NCBI GenBank assembly: GCA_007050995.1 | Contig: VJOU01000023.1 | Location: 1 to 40,720 of the forward strand | DNA from: Glycocaulis profundi | Lineage (GTDB): Bacteria; Pseudomonadota; Alphaproteobacteria; Caulobacterales; Maricaulaceae | Direction of reading: 5' to 3' | Length of the DNA stretch: 40,720 nucleotides | Shown here: in pieces, positions 29,468-35,436 of the stretch | How positions within the stretch are numbered: position 1 is the first letter of the stretch | How the letters are laid out: each line of letters begins with the position of its first letter | Translations under genes and position numbers: made by a program | The notes under the pieces: model-generated | The model's input: the letters and a program-made list of their open reading frames with translations, nothing else | What the model was told of the DNA's origin: nothing | Database searches by the model: none

Positions 29468-29718
29468 CCCAGAACCGAGCCGCCCTGCCGCTTGATGCGG
29501 ATCATGGCGAAACCGCTGACGATCAGCCATGCCGCGTTGGCCACAGCGAGGATGGCGGGAATCCACACCAGCGCCGCATCGCCGGAAAAGCCCAGATGGG
29601 CGAGCCCGAAGCTGACACCCAGCGCCATGGCGAAGGTCAGCGGCGCGGCTCCCAGCACAATGAGGAACTCGACAAGCCCGAAACGGACGTCATAGCGTGG
29701 CGCGGTCGCTGTTTTCAT
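29464..29718 (-). CDS. Small two-helix membrane protein
   Basis: An 84-residue protein with two predicted transmembrane helices (VEFLIVLGAAPLTFAMALGV and LVWIPAILAVANAAWLIVSG). No family was recognised. The ATG at 29718 has an excellent AGGAGG site 7 bp upstream. A longer frame to 29865 exists but is not supported by a ribosome binding site and overlaps the next gene. Its stop codon lies within the stop of the convergent PEP mutase-family gene. Confidence 0.7.
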   Translation of the reverse strand: MKTATAPRYDVRFGLVEFLIVLGAAPLTFAMALGVSFGLAHLGFSGDAALVWIPAILAVANAAWLIVSGFAMIRIKRQGGSVLG

Positions 29719-29788
29719 GGCGGGGCCTCCTGCTCTCAGGTTGCAGCCTGCCCCGCATGCCCCTTCCGCGCAAGCTTCACGGAAATCC

Positions 29789-31024
29789 ATGACGCCCCCC
29801 AGCTTCCTCACCCATCTCGACTGTTCCAAGACCGGCGCGCGCGTGGACGCAGGAAGGGCGCACAACCTGTCGCCCGAAGGCTGGCCGCTGCTGGCGCGCT
29901 ATGATCTGGACGCCATGACCGCGCGGGTGGACCGCGACGCGGTGGCCGCGCGTGACCCGGTGGCCTTTCCCGGTTTCTGGAAATGGCGCGAGCTCCTGCC
30001 CGTGGCGCGGAACGAAGACGTGGTTTCCCTGGGCGAGGTGGACACGCCCCTGATCGAGACGCCCGTCACGGCGAGCAAAATCGGGCTGGACGGGCCGCTT
30101 CTGGTCAAGGACGAGGGGCGGCTGCCCACGGGCAGTTTCAAGGCGCGCGGGCTGGCGCTGGCGGTGTCTATGGCCAAGTCCTACGGCATCAGGCGCATGG
30201 CCATGCCCACCAACGGCAACGCGGGCGCGGCGCTGTCGGCCTATGGCGCCCGCGCGGGGATGGAGACCTGGAGCTTCTGCCCCGACGACACCCCGGAGAT
30301 GAATGTGCGCGAGATCGCCGCGCAGGGCGGGCATGTCTTCCGGGTCAACGGCCTGATCCATCAGTGCGGCGCCATCGTGGGCGCGCTCAAAGAGGAGATG
30401 GGCTGGTTCGACACCTCCACCCTGAAGGAGCCCTACCGGATCGAGGGCAAGAAGACGATGGGGATCGAGCTGGCCTTCCAGTTGGGCTGGACCCTGCCGG
30501 ACGCCATCTTCTACCCCACCGGCGGCGGGACAGGCCTGATCGGCATGTGGAAGGCCTTCGACGAGATGGAGAGGCTGGGCTGGATCGGGTCTGAGCGCCC
30601 GAAAATGTTCGCCGTGCAGGCGCAAGGCTGCGCGCCCATCGTCAAGGCCTTCGAGGCGGGCGAGGAGCATGCGCCCGAATGGCTGGACGCGAGCACCGCC
30701 GCGGCGGGCATCCGCGTGCCCAAGGCCATCGGCGACTTCCTGATCCTGAGGGCGGTGCGCGCCTCAGGCGGGACGGCCATCGCCGTGCCAGAAGCCGAGA
30801 TCGAGCAGGCGCGGCTCATGTGCGGGCGCGAGGACGGGCTGCACCTGTGCCCCGAAGGCGCGGCCACGCTGGCCGCCGCCCGCATGGCGGTGTCGGGCGG
30901 ACTGATCGAGCGCGACGCGCGGGTGGTGCTGTTCAACTGCGGCTCGGGCCTGAAATACCCGCTGCCCGACCGCGCGCGCACGTTGGACCGGACGGGGACG
31001 ATCACGGCGCAGATGGTGAGCTGA
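29789..31024 (+). CDS. Threonine synthase-like PLP-dependent enzyme
   Basis: A 411-residue fold-type II PLP enzyme close to plant/archaeal-type threonine synthase, which converts O-phosphohomoserine to threonine. The PLP lysine is Lys118 in LPTGSFKARG, followed by PTNGNAGAALSAYGARAG and the phosphate-binding FYPTGGGTGLIGMWKA. The N-terminus (FLTHLDCSKTGARVDAG, then GWPLLARYDLDA) resembles the zinc-ribbon start of this group but keeps only one cysteine. No hom or thrB gene is nearby. It could be a second threonine synthase or a related beta-eliminating enzyme. I start at the ATG at 29789 rather than 29717, where the frame would overlap the divergent gene's start. Confidence 0.85.
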   Translation: MTPPSFLTHLDCSKTGARVDAGRAHNLSPEGWPLLARYDLDAMTARVDRDAVAARDPVAFPGFWKWRELLPVARNEDVVSLGEVDTPLIETPVTASKIGLDGPLLVKDEGRLPTGSFKARGLALAVSMAKSYGIRRMAMPTNGNAGAALSAYGARAGMETWSFCPDDTPEMNVREIAAQGGHVFRVNGLIHQCGAIVGALKEEMGWFDTSTLKEPYRIEGKKTMGIELAFQLGWTLPDAIFYPTGGGTGLIGMWKAFDEMERLGWIGSERPKMFAVQAQGCAPIVKAFEAGEEHAPEWLDASTAAAGIRVPKAIGDFLILRAVRASGGTAIAVPEAEIEQARLMCGREDGLHLCPEGAATLAAARMAVSGGLIERDARVVLFNCGSGLKYPLPDRARTLDRTGTITAQMVS

Positions 31025-31131
31025 AAAAAAAGAGCCGGACCCGCCTCGGCGGTGTCCGGCTCCAAGTCTTGCATACCTCATCGGGGAGGAGGATGGTATG
31101 CGCATCGGGGAAGATGGCGTGGCCATCAACA
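31023..31131 (-). ncRNA. Candidate trans-acting small RNA with CCUCCUCCC loop
   Basis: On the minus strand a transcript from about 31131 to 31024 (about 108 nt) would fold into three hairpins. Hairpin 1 is GATGGC-CAC-GCCATC (31127-31113). Hairpin 2 is GCATACC / GGTATGC (31101-31095 with 31077-31071), whose loop shows CCTCCTCCCC (31092-31083), complementary to Shine-Dalgarno sequences. Hairpin 3 is a 9-bp stem, GAGCCGGAC / GTCCGGCTC (31062-31054 with 31040-31032), followed by eight T (31031-31024). This is the layout of alphaproteobacterial anti-SD small RNAs such as the CcsR and NfeR1 groups. The U tail reaches the stop codon of the convergent PLP-enzyme gene. Expression is inferred, not seen. 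Confidence 0.7.
31024..31062 (-). terminator. Rho-independent terminator, minus strand (small RNA)
   Basis: The 9-bp stem described under the small RNA, further extended by an inner CCGC/GCGG pairing across one bulged base, is followed on the minus strand by U8. On the plus strand the A tract precedes the stem and no T run follows, so the element is built for minus-strand transcripts. LysR mRNA reading through would also end here. Confidence 0.85.
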
Positions 31132-31137
31132 CGAGCG

Positions 31138-31166
31138 AATATGTCTGCTGCAGGCGCTCATCACAA
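31138..31166 (-). promoter_or_regulatory. Predicted promoter of the small RNA
   Basis: On the minus strand TTGTGA (31166-31161) and CATATT (31143-31138) are separated by exactly 17 bp, each matching the sigma70 consensus at four of six positions. The expected start of transcription near 31131 lies just before hairpin 1 of the small RNA. The sequence alone cannot exclude an alternative sigma factor. Confidence 0.45.
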
Positions 31167-31283
31167 CGGACGCTTCAGCATCTCAGCTATGCAGAAACGC
31201 CGAGGCCACACCAAATCATCGGGTGTCTGACGCAAAGCTGACACAATTGCGGCCCCGCGCCATCTCCCTGCCTTGATTGGCGA

Positions 31284-32186
31284 TCAGGAGCCTCCGCTCT
31301 CTTCCCAGAGCTTGACCTGCTCGATGAGGAATTCGCGGAATGCTGCAATGCGGCGAGAGCCCTTGAGCTCCTGGGGATAGACGAAGAACACCTCGAAGGG
31401 CGGCCCGTCGATCTCGGGCAGGACGCGGACGAGTTTGGGGTTCTCCCGCGCCACGTAATCGGGCAGGCCGCATATGCCCAGCCCCGCCTCGGTGGACTTC
31501 ATCATGCCGTTGATCGTGCTGACCTCGATCACCGATTCGCGCGGGGCCCGCTCGCCCCGGCCCAGCGTGAGCTGCCAGTTCAGATTCGGGATCGGCGCCA
31601 GCCGCTTGGGCCCGTAGGCGACGAACTCGTGGCCGTCGAGATCCTCCACCGATCCCGGCGCGCCCTTGCGCTCGAGATAGGCGTCCGAGGCGTACAGGTG
31701 CTGGCCCACCTCCATCAGCTTGCGCTGGACCACGTCGTTCTGGGTCGCGCTCCAGGGCCGGATGGCGATGTCGGCCTCGAGATTGGAGATGTCCAGCTCG
31801 TGGTCGACCAGCAGCATGCGCAGCTTGATCGAGGGATAGGCCGTGCGGAAGGCGGGCAGGCGGGGAACCAGCCAGATCGCCCCCATCGCCGTGGGCGCGG
31901 TCACCCGCAGCAGGCCCGTGGGCTTGTCGCGGCTGTCATGGACCTTCGCCTCGGCCCAGGCGATGCGCGTCGCGACCTCGCCCGCCGCCCCCGACAGCAG
32001 CCGCCCCGGCTCGGTCAGCAGCAGGCCGCGCGCGTGGCGGTGAAACAGCTTCACCCCCAGATCAGCCTCAAGCGCGGAGATCTGACGGCTGACCGCAGAC
32101 TGGGACAGCCCCAGCGCCTCCGCCGCGCCCGTCAGAGACTTCGCCTCGGCGGCGGCGTGGAAGGTCTTGAGCTTGTCCCAGTCCAT
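31284..32186 (-). CDS. LysR-family transcriptional regulator
   Basis: A 300-residue LysR-type regulator. The winged helix-turn-helix is at residues 1-60 (KLKTFHAAAEAKSLTGAAEA, then LSQSAVSRQISALEADLGV). The effector-binding domain starts near 90 (GLLRVTAPTAMGAIWLVPRL). It belongs to the group often annotated near trxB in alphaproteobacteria. It is the last gene of a minus-strand run (ELM1 protein, phosphatase-like protein, trxB, ABC pair) but is separated from the permease by a repeat-rich 227-bp gap, so it may have its own promoter. Target and ligand are unknown. Confidence 0.93.
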   Translation of the reverse strand: MDWDKLKTFHAAAEAKSLTGAAEALGLSQSAVSRQISALEADLGVKLFHRHARGLLLTEPGRLLSGAAGEVATRIAWAEAKVHDSRDKPTGLLRVTAPTAMGAIWLVPRLPAFRTAYPSIKLRMLLVDHELDISNLEADIAIRPWSATQNDVVQRKLMEVGQHLYASDAYLERKGAPGSVEDLDGHEFVAYGPKRLAPIPNLNWQLTLGRGERAPRESVIEVSTINGMMKSTEAGLGICGLPDYVARENPKLVRVLPEIDGPPFEVFFVYPQELKGSRRIAAFREFLIEQVKLWEESGGS

Positions 32187-32413: not shown

Positions 32414-33673
32414 TCACACCCGTATCGTCATCCCGTCCGCCAGCGAGTTGCGGAAGGCGCGCCAGGCAGGGAACAGGCCCAGCACCGCGGCGGCCAGCGT
32501 CACAGCGCCGATCAGCGCCAGATCATACAGGCCCGGCGTCATGCCGATCAGGAAGATGCCGAAACGCTGCTCCAGGATCGGCGCGCCCGCCAGCAGCGCC
32601 CCATAGGTCAGCGCCGTGCCCAGCACCGCCCCGAAGAAGGCCAGCAGCGCCGCCTCGCTGACCAGCAGGGCGAAGATGTGGTGAGGCCGCGCGCCCAGCG
32701 CGCGCAGGATCGCCATCTCCCGCCGCCGCTCGTTCAGGCTGGTCAGGATCGCGGTCAGGATGCAGATCAGCCCCGTCAGCACCACGAAGGCCGCCACCGC
32801 CGCCAGCGTGCGTTCCGCCGCCCCGACCACCTGCCACAACTGGGCCAGCGCCACGCCGGGGATGATCCCCTGCAGCGCCTCTTCCGGATAGGTGTTCACC
32901 TGCCGCTGCAGCCGCAGCGCGGCAGTGGGCGAAGTCAGGCCCACCAGAAACGCCGTGATCTGGTCGGGCTGCAGGTCCATCTGCCTCAGCTCGGTCGCGG
33001 ACAGATTCGTGCCCGCGCCCGTGGGGCCTTCGAGGTGGATCGCCTCGATGGCTTCGAGGCTGACGAAGACCGACCGGTCCACCGGCGTGCCGGTGGGCGC
33101 CAGGATGCCGACGATCTCGAACGGATTGTTGTCGTGCTCGACGAAGCTCACCCGCCCCGTGCCGTGGGCGACGATGATCTCCTCGCCCAGCTCATAGCCC
33201 AGATCGCGCGCGACCGCCGCGCCCAGCACGGTGTCGAACAGATCGCCCAGCGCCCCGCCTTCGGTGAAGGCCAGATTGCGCCGGTCGCCGTGCCGGTAAT
33301 GCTCGAAAAAGCGGTTGTCGGTGCCCACCACCCGGTATCCGGCATGGGAATCGCCCAGCGAGATCGGCACGGTCCACGCCACGTTCGGCGCGCCGGCGAC
33401 GGCCTCATAGGTCTCCCAGGTGATGTTGTTGGTCGCGTCGCCGATATGGAAGATCGAGTAGAGCAGCAGGTTCACCGGGCTCGACCGGGCGCCCACGATC
33501 AGGTCGGTGCCGGTGATGGTGTTCTCGAAACTCGCCCGCGCCCCGTGGCGCACCTTCTCCACGCCCAGGAACAGCGTCATAGTGATGGCCACGGTCAGCA
33601 CCGTCAGGATCGCGGTCGCGCGCCGGTTGGCGATGGAGCGCAGGGCGAGGGCGAGGATGGGGAAGCGGGTCAT
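32414..33673 (-). CDS. ABC transporter permease, MacB/FtsX family
   Basis: A 419-residue permease with one N-terminal helix (ANRRATAILTVLTVAITMTLF), a large periplasmic domain (about 45-290) and three C-terminal helices with the FtsX signature NERRREMAILRALGARPHHI. The N-terminal GTDLIVGARSSPVNLLLYSIF and NNITWETYEAV mark a widespread subfamily. Related genes in Vibrio lie in zinc-regulated (zrg) loci, which is a recollection and not visible here. Such type VII-like ABC systems usually do mechanotransmission or lipoprotein work rather than classical import. The ATG overlaps the ATPase stop by 4 bp. Confidence 0.92.
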   Translation of the reverse strand: MTRFPILALALRSIANRRATAILTVLTVAITMTLFLGVEKVRHGARASFENTITGTDLIVGARSSPVNLLLYSIFHIGDATNNITWETYEAVAGAPNVAWTVPISLGDSHAGYRVVGTDNRFFEHYRHGDRRNLAFTEGGALGDLFDTVLGAAVARDLGYELGEEIIVAHGTGRVSFVEHDNNPFEIVGILAPTGTPVDRSVFVSLEAIEAIHLEGPTGAGTNLSATELRQMDLQPDQITAFLVGLTSPTAALRLQRQVNTYPEEALQGIIPGVALAQLWQVVGAAERTLAAVAAFVVLTGLICILTAILTSLNERRREMAILRALGARPHHIFALLVSEAALLAFFGAVLGTALTYGALLAGAPILEQRFGIFLIGMTPGLYDLALIGAVTLAAAVLGLFPAWRAFRNSLADGMTIRV

Positions 33674-34398
33674 GCGGCTTCTCCGGTCTTGGCGGCGGCG
33701 TTGATCGAACTGAGGTCCACGGCCCGGTCGAACCGGCTGGCGAGCGCGCCGTCATGGCTGACGAACAGCAGCGCCGCCCCGCTCGCCTCGCATTCCTCCA
33801 GCAGCAGGGACAGGAAGGCGTCGCGCACGTCCGCGTCCAGCGCGCTGGTCGGCTCGTCGGCCAGCACCAGACCCGGCCGCCCGATCAGGGCGCGCGCGGC
33901 GGCCACCCGCTGCTGCTGGCCCACCGAAAGCTCGGTGGGCTTGGCGTTCCAGTAGGTCTCGGGATCGAGCTGCAGCCGCTCCAGCAGACGCCGCGCTTCC
34001 TTCGGCGCGTCGCCCGCCGCCTTGCGCCGTTCGGACGAGAACCGGCAGGGCAGCAGCACGTTGTCGCCCGCGGGCATGTAGGGCAGCAGGTTGAACATCT
34101 GGAAGATCACGCCCATCCGCGCGGCCCGGTGCGCGTCGCGTTTGGCGCTCGGCATCGAACTCATGGGCTTGCCCAGCACGCTCACGCTGCCCTCGCGCGG
34201 GGTCAGGATGCCCGCGATCAGGGCCAGCAGGGTGGACTTGCCCGACCCGCTGGCGCCCTTGAGGAAGACCCGCTCGCCCGCCTCCAGCCGGAAACCGTCG
34301 ATGGCGATGACGTCAGGCCCGCCGCGCCGATAGGCGAAGCGGACCTGATCGATGGCGATGGCCGGAGCGGCGGCGCCCGGGGCGTTATCCTGTTTCAT
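33670..34398 (-). CDS. ABC transporter ATP-binding protein
   Basis: A 242-residue ATPase of the LolD/MacB type that powers the permease in the overlapping gene. Walker A is GASGSGKS at residues 48-55, the Q-loop lies in GVIFQMFNLLPYM, the signature is LSVGQQQRVAAARAL (Val where Gly is usual), Walker B is LVLADEPTSALD, and the H-loop is FVSHD. It lies 63 bp downstream of trxB on the same strand and is probably part of its transcript. Confidence 0.94.
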   Translation of the reverse strand: MKQDNAPGAAAPAIAIDQVRFAYRRGGPDVIAIDGFRLEAGERVFLKGASGSGKSTLLALIAGILTPREGSVSVLGKPMSSMPSAKRDAHRAARMGVIFQMFNLLPYMPAGDNVLLPCRFSSERRKAAGDAPKEARRLLERLQLDPETYWNAKPTELSVGQQQRVAAARALIGRPGLVLADEPTSALDADVRDAFLSLLLEECEASGAALLFVSHDGALASRFDRAVDLSSINAAAKTGEAA

Positions 34399-34461: not shown

Positions 34462-35436
34462 TTACGCCGCGTCTTCCGCGGCCTGACCGCCTTCGTCCTG
34501 GGCGGCGAGGAAGCGTTCGGCCTCCAGCGCGGCCATGCAGCCCATGCCCGCGGCGGTCACGGCCTGGCGGAACTTGTCGTCGGTCACGTCGCCCGCGGCG
34601 AACACGCCGGGGATGGAGGTCGCCGTCGACCCCGGCGTGGTGACCAGATAGCCGCCCTCCTTGGTTTCAAGCTGGCCGGTGAACAGCTCGGTGGCCGGGG
34701 CGTGGCCGATGGCGATGAACACGCCGTCCGTGCCGTGCTCGGTGACCGCGCCGGTCTTGAGGTTCTTCAGCTTAATGCCGGTCACGCCCGGCCCGCCTTC
34801 GCCGCCGGTGATCTCCTCGACCGCCGAATCCCAGATCACCTCGACCTTGGGATTTCTGAACAGGCGCTCCTGCATCATCTTCTCTGCGCGCAGCTCGTCG
34901 CGGCGATGGACCAGCGTCACCTTGGAGGCGAAATTGGTCAGGAACAGCGCCTCCTCCACGGCGGTGTTGCCCCCGCCGATCACGAACACTTCCTTGCCGC
35001 GATAGAAGAAGCCGTCGCAGGTCGCGCAGGCGGACACGCCGAAGCCCTGCATCTTCTGCTCGCTCTCCAGTCCCAGCCATTTCGCGCTGGCGCCGGTGGC
35101 GATGATCACGCTGTCGGCGGTGTACACGTCCCCGCTGTCGCCCTTCAGGGTGAAGGGGCGTCTGGACAGGTCCGCCTCCACGATCACGTCGGACACCATC
35201 TCGGTGCCCACATGCTCGGCCTGGGCGCGCATCTGCTCCATCAGCCAGGGGCCCTGGATGACGTCGGCGAAGCCGGGATAATTCTCCACGTCGGTGGTGA
35301 TGGTCAGCTGCCCGCCGGGCTGCAGCCCCGCGATCAGCATCGGTTTCAGCATCGCGCGGGCGGCGTAGATGGCGGCGGTGTAGCCGGCCGCGCCCGATCC
35401 GATGATGGCGACTTTGGAGTGGCGGGTCTGGCTCAT
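34462..35436 (-). CDS. trxB: Thioredoxin reductase
   Basis: The flavoenzyme passes electrons from NADPH to thioredoxin. The 324-residue protein has the FAD-binding GSGAAG (residues 13-18), the redox-active pair Cys137 and Cys140 in SACATCDGFF, the NADPH-binding GGGNTA (154-159), and the C-terminal FAD site GVFAAGDVTDDKFRQAVTAA. It lies 22 bp after the phosphatase-like gene, so it is likely co-transcribed with it. Confidence 0.97.
   Translation of the reverse strand: MSQTRHSKVAIIGSGAAGYTAAIYAARAMLKPMLIAGLQPGGQLTITTDVENYPGFADVIQGPWLMEQMRAQAEHVGTEMVSDVIVEADLSRRPFTLKGDSGDVYTADSVIIATGASAKWLGLESEQKMQGFGVSACATCDGFFYRGKEVFVIGGGNTAVEEALFLTNFASKVTLVHRRDELRAEKMMQERLFRNPKVEVIWDSAVEEITGGEGGPGVTGIKLKNLKTGAVTEHGTDGVFIAIGHAPATELFTGQLETKEGGYLVTTPGSTATSIPGVFAAGDVTDDKFRQAVTAAGMGCMAALEAERFLAAQDEGGQAAEDAA

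Follow-up and report, generated by a model that had tools for sequence, protein, structure and literature searches.

What occupies the gap between a threonine synthase-like gene and lysR on contig VJOU01000023.1 of Glycocaulis profundi (assembly GCA_007050995.1), what controls it and on what does it act? A preliminary description of the 40,720-nt stretch of DNA concerned (hereafter the window) had placed an anti-Shine-Dalgarno (anti-SD) small RNA (sRNA) on the minus strand of this gap, and had likened it to stress-linked RNAs of the CcsR and NfeR1/alpha-r14 type. The analysis reported here suggests that the gap probably encodes an LsrB-activated, AbcR1-like trans-acting sRNA that masks the ribosome-binding sites of uptake genes, a Maricaulaceae counterpart of the LsrB/VtlR-AbcR circuit so far worked out in host-associated Rhizobiales. 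The adjacent LsrB/VtlR-type regulator would bind a predicted box at -61 to -49 and activate the promoter of a free-standing sRNA; the RNA would present CCUCCUCCCC in the loop of its second hairpin for pairing with G-rich Shine-Dalgarno (SD) sequences, and such pairing would block ribosome entry, resulting in less nutrient-uptake protein (TonB receptors, transporters and glycoside hydrolases).

Architecture and conservation of the RNA gene

The elements of the gene and its predicted promoter are as follows.

31131-31024, minus strand: small RNA gene, predicted start 31131, predicted transcript of 108 nt
31113-31127, minus strand: hairpin SL1, with triloop CAC in the window copy
31107-31112, minus strand: UUCCCC link from SL1 to SL2, similar to aSD2 (UUCCCCUC) of AbcR
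31071-31101, minus strand: hairpin SL2, from fold and alignment
31083-31092, minus strand: anti-SD motif CCUCCUCCCC in the SL2 loop
31064-31070, minus strand: AAGACUU link ahead of the terminator
31024-31063, minus strand: intrinsic terminator, stem 31063-31032 and U8 31031-31024
31138-31143, minus strand: -10 element CATATT
31161-31166, minus strand: -35 element TTGTGA, 17-bp spacer to the -10 element

The layout originally proposed for 31166-31024, namely TTGTGA, a 17-bp spacer, CATATT, three hairpins and U8 in a transcript of 108 nt, was confirmed. The window RNA folded at -49.5 kcal/mol (z -4.85 for the 108-nt version, z -5.50 for a 109-nt version), a stability reached by none of 200 shuffles of either, and the minimum free energy fold placed two weak inner pairs inside the SL2 loop where CCUCCUCCCC sits. 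By itself this sequence observation was not decisive, because a promoter scanner requiring 9 of 12 consensus positions returned no promoter at the RNA gene, a terminator scanner found no terminator there, despite a stem and U8 that the fold shows clearly, and CCTCCTCCC occurs once in the window against 0.84 times expected, making the motif alone unremarkable. The predicted promoter, which by eye matches the sigma-70 consensus at 8 of 12 positions, is a weak point.

What raises the window RNA above chance is its conservation, as seen in BLASTN matches, a retained loop core and covarying stems. BLASTN matches to the gap were obtained in 10 of 60 relatives, all at E 2.2e-7 or better, and the loop core CTCCTCCCCGA was kept in all ten. 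A search with a 27-base pattern yielded 13 stretches in genomes of Woodsholea, Glycocaulis, Marinicauda, Alkalicaulis and Oceanicaulis and in several metagenome-assembled genomes bearing the names Maricaulaceae, Alphaproteobacteria, Glycocaulis or Oceanicaulis. Since the pattern contained the loop core and supplied 13 of the 18 copies finally aligned, the invariance of the loop across that alignment arises by construction, and the unbiased figure is that of the ten BLAST-found loci.

Folding, which covered 14 of the 18 aligned copies, gave three hairpins in every case (z -3.8 to -7.1). Across the 18-copy alignment from SL2 to the terminator, 98.8% of cells were paired as against 88.8% in shuffles and 28 cells carried double-sided changes as against 7.6, with the structure slid by one to three columns pairing at 20-42%, the structure scored being itself derived from that alignment. 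The stems thus covary, most of the covariation belonging to the terminator stem, with 6 of its 10 pairs against one of 8 in SL2. In 19 further, distant relatives, aligned without L215 (loci bear our own L numbers), the SL2 stem was more variable and some cells were unpaired. Every one of the 18 aligned copies has CATAT or GTATA 44-79 nt ahead of the loop motif, the link ahead of the terminator reads ARACT in the relatives, and SL1 is kept as a hairpin, not as a sequence. The anti-SD core varies in the wider family, with CTCCTCCCC, TTCCTCCCC or ACTCTCCCC in 22 of the 28 lysR-downstream regions that hold the RNA, and CTCCCC or CCTCCC in all 28. An additional CUCCUCCCC-type motif is carried by the SL1 loop of L044, L010 and L011. 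CUCCUCCCC was also observed in the terminator loop of L041 (the same place as L188), L187, L191 and L192, and the motif can therefore occupy SL1, SL2 or the terminator.

The RNA gene therefore looks real, and to encode a conserved small regulatory RNA; structure, conservation and covariation bear out the earlier proposal of an anti-SD loop in a likely translational repressor. That the gap holds a mere terminator after lysR, with a C-rich hairpin arising by chance and no regulatory RNA, would accord with the weak promoter score and with an expression that is inferred only, but is scarcely credible in view of the loop core in ten of ten BLAST-found relatives, the compensatory changes and the persistence of the RNA in loci that have no lysR.

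A small protein was considered as the product and rejected: a minus-strand open reading frame (ORF) from 31074 crosses the terminator, whose length varies among relatives, and has no Pfam match. At 31022-31031 the U8 tract lies directly against the stop codon of the threonine synthase-like gene that converges on it, the last base of the terminator being also the last base of that codon. Nothing in the 3-kb loci from the ten BLAST-found relatives matched this neighbouring gene, and a BLASTN search of the own genome with the RNA brought up no further match better than E 0.02.

The LysR neighbour, the predicted LsrB box and gene order

The features on which the regulatory argument depends are these.

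31284-32186, minus strand: lysR, lsrB/vtlR ortholog, from PDB match and alignment
31192-31180, minus strand: predicted LsrB/VtlR box GCATAGCTGAGAT, of the form GCAT-N3-TG-N3-T, at -61 to -49 of the predicted start
31228-31236, minus strand: another conserved block, TTTGCGTCA, beginning the region 44 nt further upstream than the box, recognised by eye in the alignment
32414-33673, minus strand: FtsX/MacB-type permease, domain assignment
33670-34398, minus strand: ABC ATPase, domain assignment
34462-35436, minus strand: trxB, thioredoxin reductase (TIGR01292, 406 bits against a cut-off of 343)
29717-31024, plus strand: threonine synthase-like gene, convergent neighbour

Judged by its sequence, the window LysR is an LsrB/VtlR ortholog over its full length. 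Its best PDB match was 9HH1, the LsrB structure from A. tumefaciens (PMC11975290), at E 1e-75 over residues 1-295, with the next LysR in the PDB at 3e-28, and 30 of 39 residues of the helix-turn-helix stretch, counted by eye, were identical between the two proteins. Orthologs were detected in 128 of 137 genomes of the family (E 1e-60), 12 of 24 genomes of the order outside it (E 1e-40) and 79 of 142 genomes of the class, its own included (E 1e-60); in the order families f3 and f5 none of 12 genomes had a match at E 1e-40.

The LsrB consensus described for PabcR1 of S. meliloti is GCAT-N3-TG-N3-T at -61 to -49 (PMC8844928), and GCATAGCTGAGAT matches it exactly, at the published position for the predicted start 31131. 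A GCAT half-site precedes the -10 element in 17 of 18 aligned promoters, at 49 nt in 15 and at 48 nt in two, the promoter of L045 having a variant half-site outside the search pattern, and the full consensus was found in eight of the 18 (0.2 in shuffles). A different form, the dyad ATGC-N3-7-GCAT, is present in none of the 18 aligned promoters, in 22 of 28 wider-family regions (0.51 shuffled) and in 12 of 29 class regions (0.54 shuffled). The box varies in form among relatives, so that it is assigned from its position and from the exact match in the window. The TTTGCGTCA block is perhaps a second regulator contact.

A covariance-type model (R1) built from the 18 aligned copies matched the window, itself one of the 18 training sequences, at 31023-31106. 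A search of 137 family genomes at E 0.01 with strict filters gave a match in 94; in 68 of these, at least nine of which are themselves R1 training sequences, the RNA lay 107-417 nt downstream of an LsrB-type lysR on the same strand, in five more it lay 1.62-1.67 kb from lysR, and in the remaining 21 it was elsewhere or only weakly matched. Of the 14 Oceanicaulis-type (g5) genomes with a match, 11 have the RNA away from lysR, as do both Marinicauda-type (g15) genomes. Seven aligned copies in loci without a lysR ortholog (L039, L040, L043, L044, L046, L047 and L011) all retain the GCAT half-site, two of them with the full consensus, and none of four lysR-downstream regions of g5/g15 shows any of the three box forms; the box therefore belongs to the RNA. 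The lysR-less loci that keep the RNA come from Oceanicaulis, Marinicauda, Alkalicaulis and others.

These results bear on the alternative that the RNA is cut by RNase E from the 3' untranslated region of the lysR mRNA, as SorX is from its parent mRNA. The RNA does start 152 nt after the lysR stop on the same strand, and several lysR-downstream RNAs of the class sample described below give Rfam SorX matches just under the cut-off of 46.6 bits (43.2 bits at most, with 17 of 29 loci scanned). This origin is nevertheless improbable, as the interval from lysR to the RNA holds a conserved promoter and GCAT half-site, both of which stay with the RNA where lysR is absent.

The order of the window, trxB, ABC ATPase, FtsX-type permease, lysR and RNA, all on one strand, resembles the order trxB, vtlR, abcR1, abcR2 reported for A. 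tumefaciens (PMC7486931). What had been described as a different gene context is accordingly the published AbcR1 context, with an LsrB box also placed as published. The supposed redox gene run reduces to one redox gene, trxB, the rest being the ABC ATPase and the permease, which we take to be LolD-like and LolC/E-like, respectively.

The window LysR has a single cysteine, at residue 239. Of the LsrB cysteines, the conserved pair C144 and C273 (PMC11975290) aligns to Ile140 and a valine, and C236 and C244 are likewise not cysteine in the window protein; among 30 orthologs of the family and 29 of the class no cysteine column reached 25%, but cysteine stands at the C144 position in 11 of the 12 orthologs from elsewhere in the order. 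The window LysR thus lacks the redox cysteines of its rhizobial counterpart, which makes a thiol switch unlikely, and the inducing signal is probably not thiol oxidation. Thiol-based control by oxidative stress accordingly receives no support from the sequence.

Comparison with known RNA families

At gathering thresholds Rfam gave no match anywhere in the window, and a permissive search gave only sub-threshold matches, the best being ar14 at 26 bits (E 0.004, cut-off 58.8); the view that the RNA falls within no known Rfam family was thereby upheld at threshold. The closest functional parallel is with AbcR1/AbcR2 of Sinorhizobium, Agrobacterium and Brucella, which likewise lie downstream of lsrB/vtlR in a run with trxB (PMC7486931) and, for a window start that is predicted, share the LsrB box GCAT-N3-TG-N3-T at -61 to -49 (PMC8844928). 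Common to both are also a sigma-70 type promoter, hairpins and a similar length (114-121 nt for AbcR), together with CUCCUCCC in a loop and a UUCCCC-type motif (PMC7486931, PMC8844928). At the place of AbcR aSD2 (UUCCCCUC), between SL1 and SL2, the window link reads UUCCCCGA; the anti-SD loop motif, in SL2 of the window RNA, is carried by some relatives in SL1 too. The systems differ in that AbcR is present in two copies and the window RNA in one, that two ABC-transporter genes separate trxB from lysR in the window, and that the window LsrB ortholog is without the conserved cysteines.

The loop motif is shared with other families. CcsR1-4 of Rhodobacter (RF02791) have a CCUCCUCCC hairpin, occur as tandem copies beside a DUF1127 gene and are under heat-shock sigma control. 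A stress-sigma-controlled copy of this CcsR/ar14 ('cuckoo') hairpin family, beside lysR by chance, would explain the loop and the rank of ar14 as best Rfam match, and ar14 reached 27-37 bits in five of 20 relatives' lysR-downstream regions and CcsR1 22-26 bits in three of 20. All of these scores fall far below the cut-offs of 58.8 and 65.3 bits, however, and CcsR was not among the matches to the window RNA up to E 10; R1 has a single match in the genome, with no tandem copies, and no DUF1127 or other Pfam match was found in eight of nine unassigned ORFs of at least 30 aa overlapping 30700-31500 (a 35-aa ORF being left out). The linkage to lysR and the predicted LsrB box also speak against it, although the box alone does not decide the matter, because NfeR1, an ar14 RNA, is itself LsrB-activated, from a promoter with TGCA-N6-GCAT (PMC10746234). 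NfeR1 (alpha-r14, RF02344) resembles the window RNA in its CCUCCUCCC loop and three hairpins, but has that motif in all three, as against one match in the window. Membership of the CcsR or ar14/NfeR1 families, as entertained at the outset, is thus unlikely.

SorX (RF02784) and MmgR/SisA-D (alphaR8, RF00519) also place an anti-SD motif ahead of the terminator, and SorX-like RNAs occur downstream of LsrB-type lysR elsewhere in the class. Descent from one of these lineages, with lysR adjacency incidental to its ancestry, would fit sub-threshold suhB/mmgR matches (19.9 bits in the window RNA, and 27-35 bits for certain relatives and loci of the class) and the TTTCCTCCC motif, like the alphaR8 core, in six of 12 order-level lysR-downstream regions. 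It too has little probability: no match exceeded threshold, and alphaR8 lies mostly beside another gene, usually that of N-formylglutamate amidohydrolase (PMC12559287), whereas lysR is the stable neighbour here.

The C-rich loop and stress relation of GsrN, a Caulobacter sRNA, invited comparison without alignment; the direct neighbours of the window RNA, a threonine synthase-like gene and lysR, set it apart. The mark of GsrN would be a sigma-EcfG promoter, GGAAC-N-CGTT, near phyR/nepR/ecfG; the exact pattern GGAAC-N15-19-CGTT does not occur in the window. GsrN is activated by the general-stress factor sigma-T, is encoded mostly near the sigma-T locus in Caulobacteraceae and activates katG (PMC5869019). 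Neither Maricaulis nor Oceanicaulis was named in the sRNA literature among the matches listed.

Candidate targets and distribution of the module

Starts complementary to the loop were sought in the own genome. The pattern GGGGAGGA-N4-11-ATG occurs at 29 sites in the genome (three for the reversed pattern), and as controls 30 of 38 sites with the non-complementary SD AAGGAAA were fetched; sites with an ORF below 80 aa were dropped (three of the 29, of which one was the sRNA locus, and 16 of the 30 controls). Among the remaining 26, nine starts belong to transport proteins (four TonB receptors, TauE, SNF, DctP, SSF and a sugar MFS) and five to hydrolases (GH3, GH97, alpha-amylase, SASA/GH2 esterase and M28 peptidase), the other 12 being off theme (two SDRs, two beta-lactamase-fold proteins, DUF4440, a thiolase, a response regulator, a PHB-accumulation regulator, a tryptophan halogenase, an I78 inhibitor, a PAS protein and one without a Pfam match). 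None of the 14 control starts encodes a transport protein or a hydrolase, and one-sided exact values for target against control were 0.011 and 0.0004, for categories chosen after the matches had been seen. In S. meliloti, AbcR1/2 repress transport and metabolic mRNAs (PMC8844928).

Across 385 genomes of the class R1 matched in 29, its own included, and of 29 R1 loci fetched from other class genomes only L141 has an LsrB-type lysR beside the RNA. Since R1 does not reach across the class, synteny was used instead, with a sample of the 29 best lysR loci besides that of the window. The fetched flank includes trxB in 26 of these, and 18 of the 29 have, no more than 450 nt from lysR, an anti-SD motif followed by a T-run at a distance of 20-60 nt (0.85 in shuffles); control stretches 900-1350 nt downstream of lysR had the combination in none of 26. 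CCTCCCTG[TA] is present in 15 of 29 regions and ACGTCTCCCAGACGT in 11. ACT before the terminator is, by eye, common to the window family and many of the class RNAs; together with the class anti-SD motifs it is a hint of common origin, not proof, as R1 misses the class RNAs.

A number of observations weigh against an LsrB-activated, AbcR1-like RNA in the window. The ar15 model (RF02345, cut-off 40 bits) did not match the window RNA even at E 10, its best score in the genome being 16.9 bits at another place, and matched once, below cut-off, in 142 class genomes; descent from a shared AbcR ancestor is therefore not shown by sequence, and the window RNA probably works like AbcR without being a member of ar15. 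AbcR carries its aSD1, CUCCUCCC, in the SL1 loop and the window RNA its motif in SL2. The full LsrB consensus is present in no more than eight of the 18 aligned promoters, in only two of 28 wider-family regions (0.45 in shuffles) and in six of 29 class regions (0.48). The half-site in its short form, GCAT[AG][AG]C, also occurs in four of five g7 regions without the RNA, by eye in coding sequence, and is thus not trusted alone. Under the strict filters R1 found nothing in 43 of 137 family genomes, in 26 of the 94 with a match the RNA was not within 700 nt of lysR, five g7 loci (L185, L207, L208, L209 and L217) have no such RNA after lysR, where there is apparently coding sequence, and 11 of 29 class regions are without an anti-SD motif plus T-run. 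The target comparison is small, with post hoc categories and four of 14 controls without a Pfam match, and G-rich SDs may favour transport and hydrolase genes for other reasons. Finally, the start site is a predicted one and expression is inferred.

A wider proposal, offered tentatively and with slightly less than even confidence, is that a module of trxB, lsrB and an anti-SD sRNA was ancestral to much of the Alphaproteobacteria, the first function of LsrB being to drive an RNA that masks ribosome sites and so restrains nutrient uptake. As no cysteine column is common in the sampled family and class orthologs, the thiol redox sensing of rhizobial LsrB would on this proposal be a later addition. 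The module as such is not new, because high synteny of the AbcR1 region across alphaproteobacteria (PMC8844928) and conservation of the trxB-vtlR order (PMC7486931) are already published, alpha-r15 having been described for most Rhizobiaceae and Brucellaceae (PMC8844928). What is new is a divergent RNA outside Rfam, in the same place and with the same regulator box, in Maricaulaceae, together with anti-SD RNAs behind lsrB in many other genomes of the class. With the LsrB-sRNA module extending beyond Rhizobiales, host interaction is unlikely to have been its original purpose; synteny plus box offers a route to RNAs of this kind that escape covariance models, and the ancestral LsrB signal becomes testable.

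Two minor observations may be added. The order-level lysR-downstream regions L254-L259 show ATGC-N-GCAT dyads and TTTCCTCCC, similar to the alphaR8 core. Elsewhere in the genome of the window, an ar14-like candidate at C56:15021-15130 (L052; 42.9 bits against a cut-off of 58.8) has hairpins with C-rich loops between AraC-like and SDR-like ORFs, and is possibly a second anti-SD RNA.
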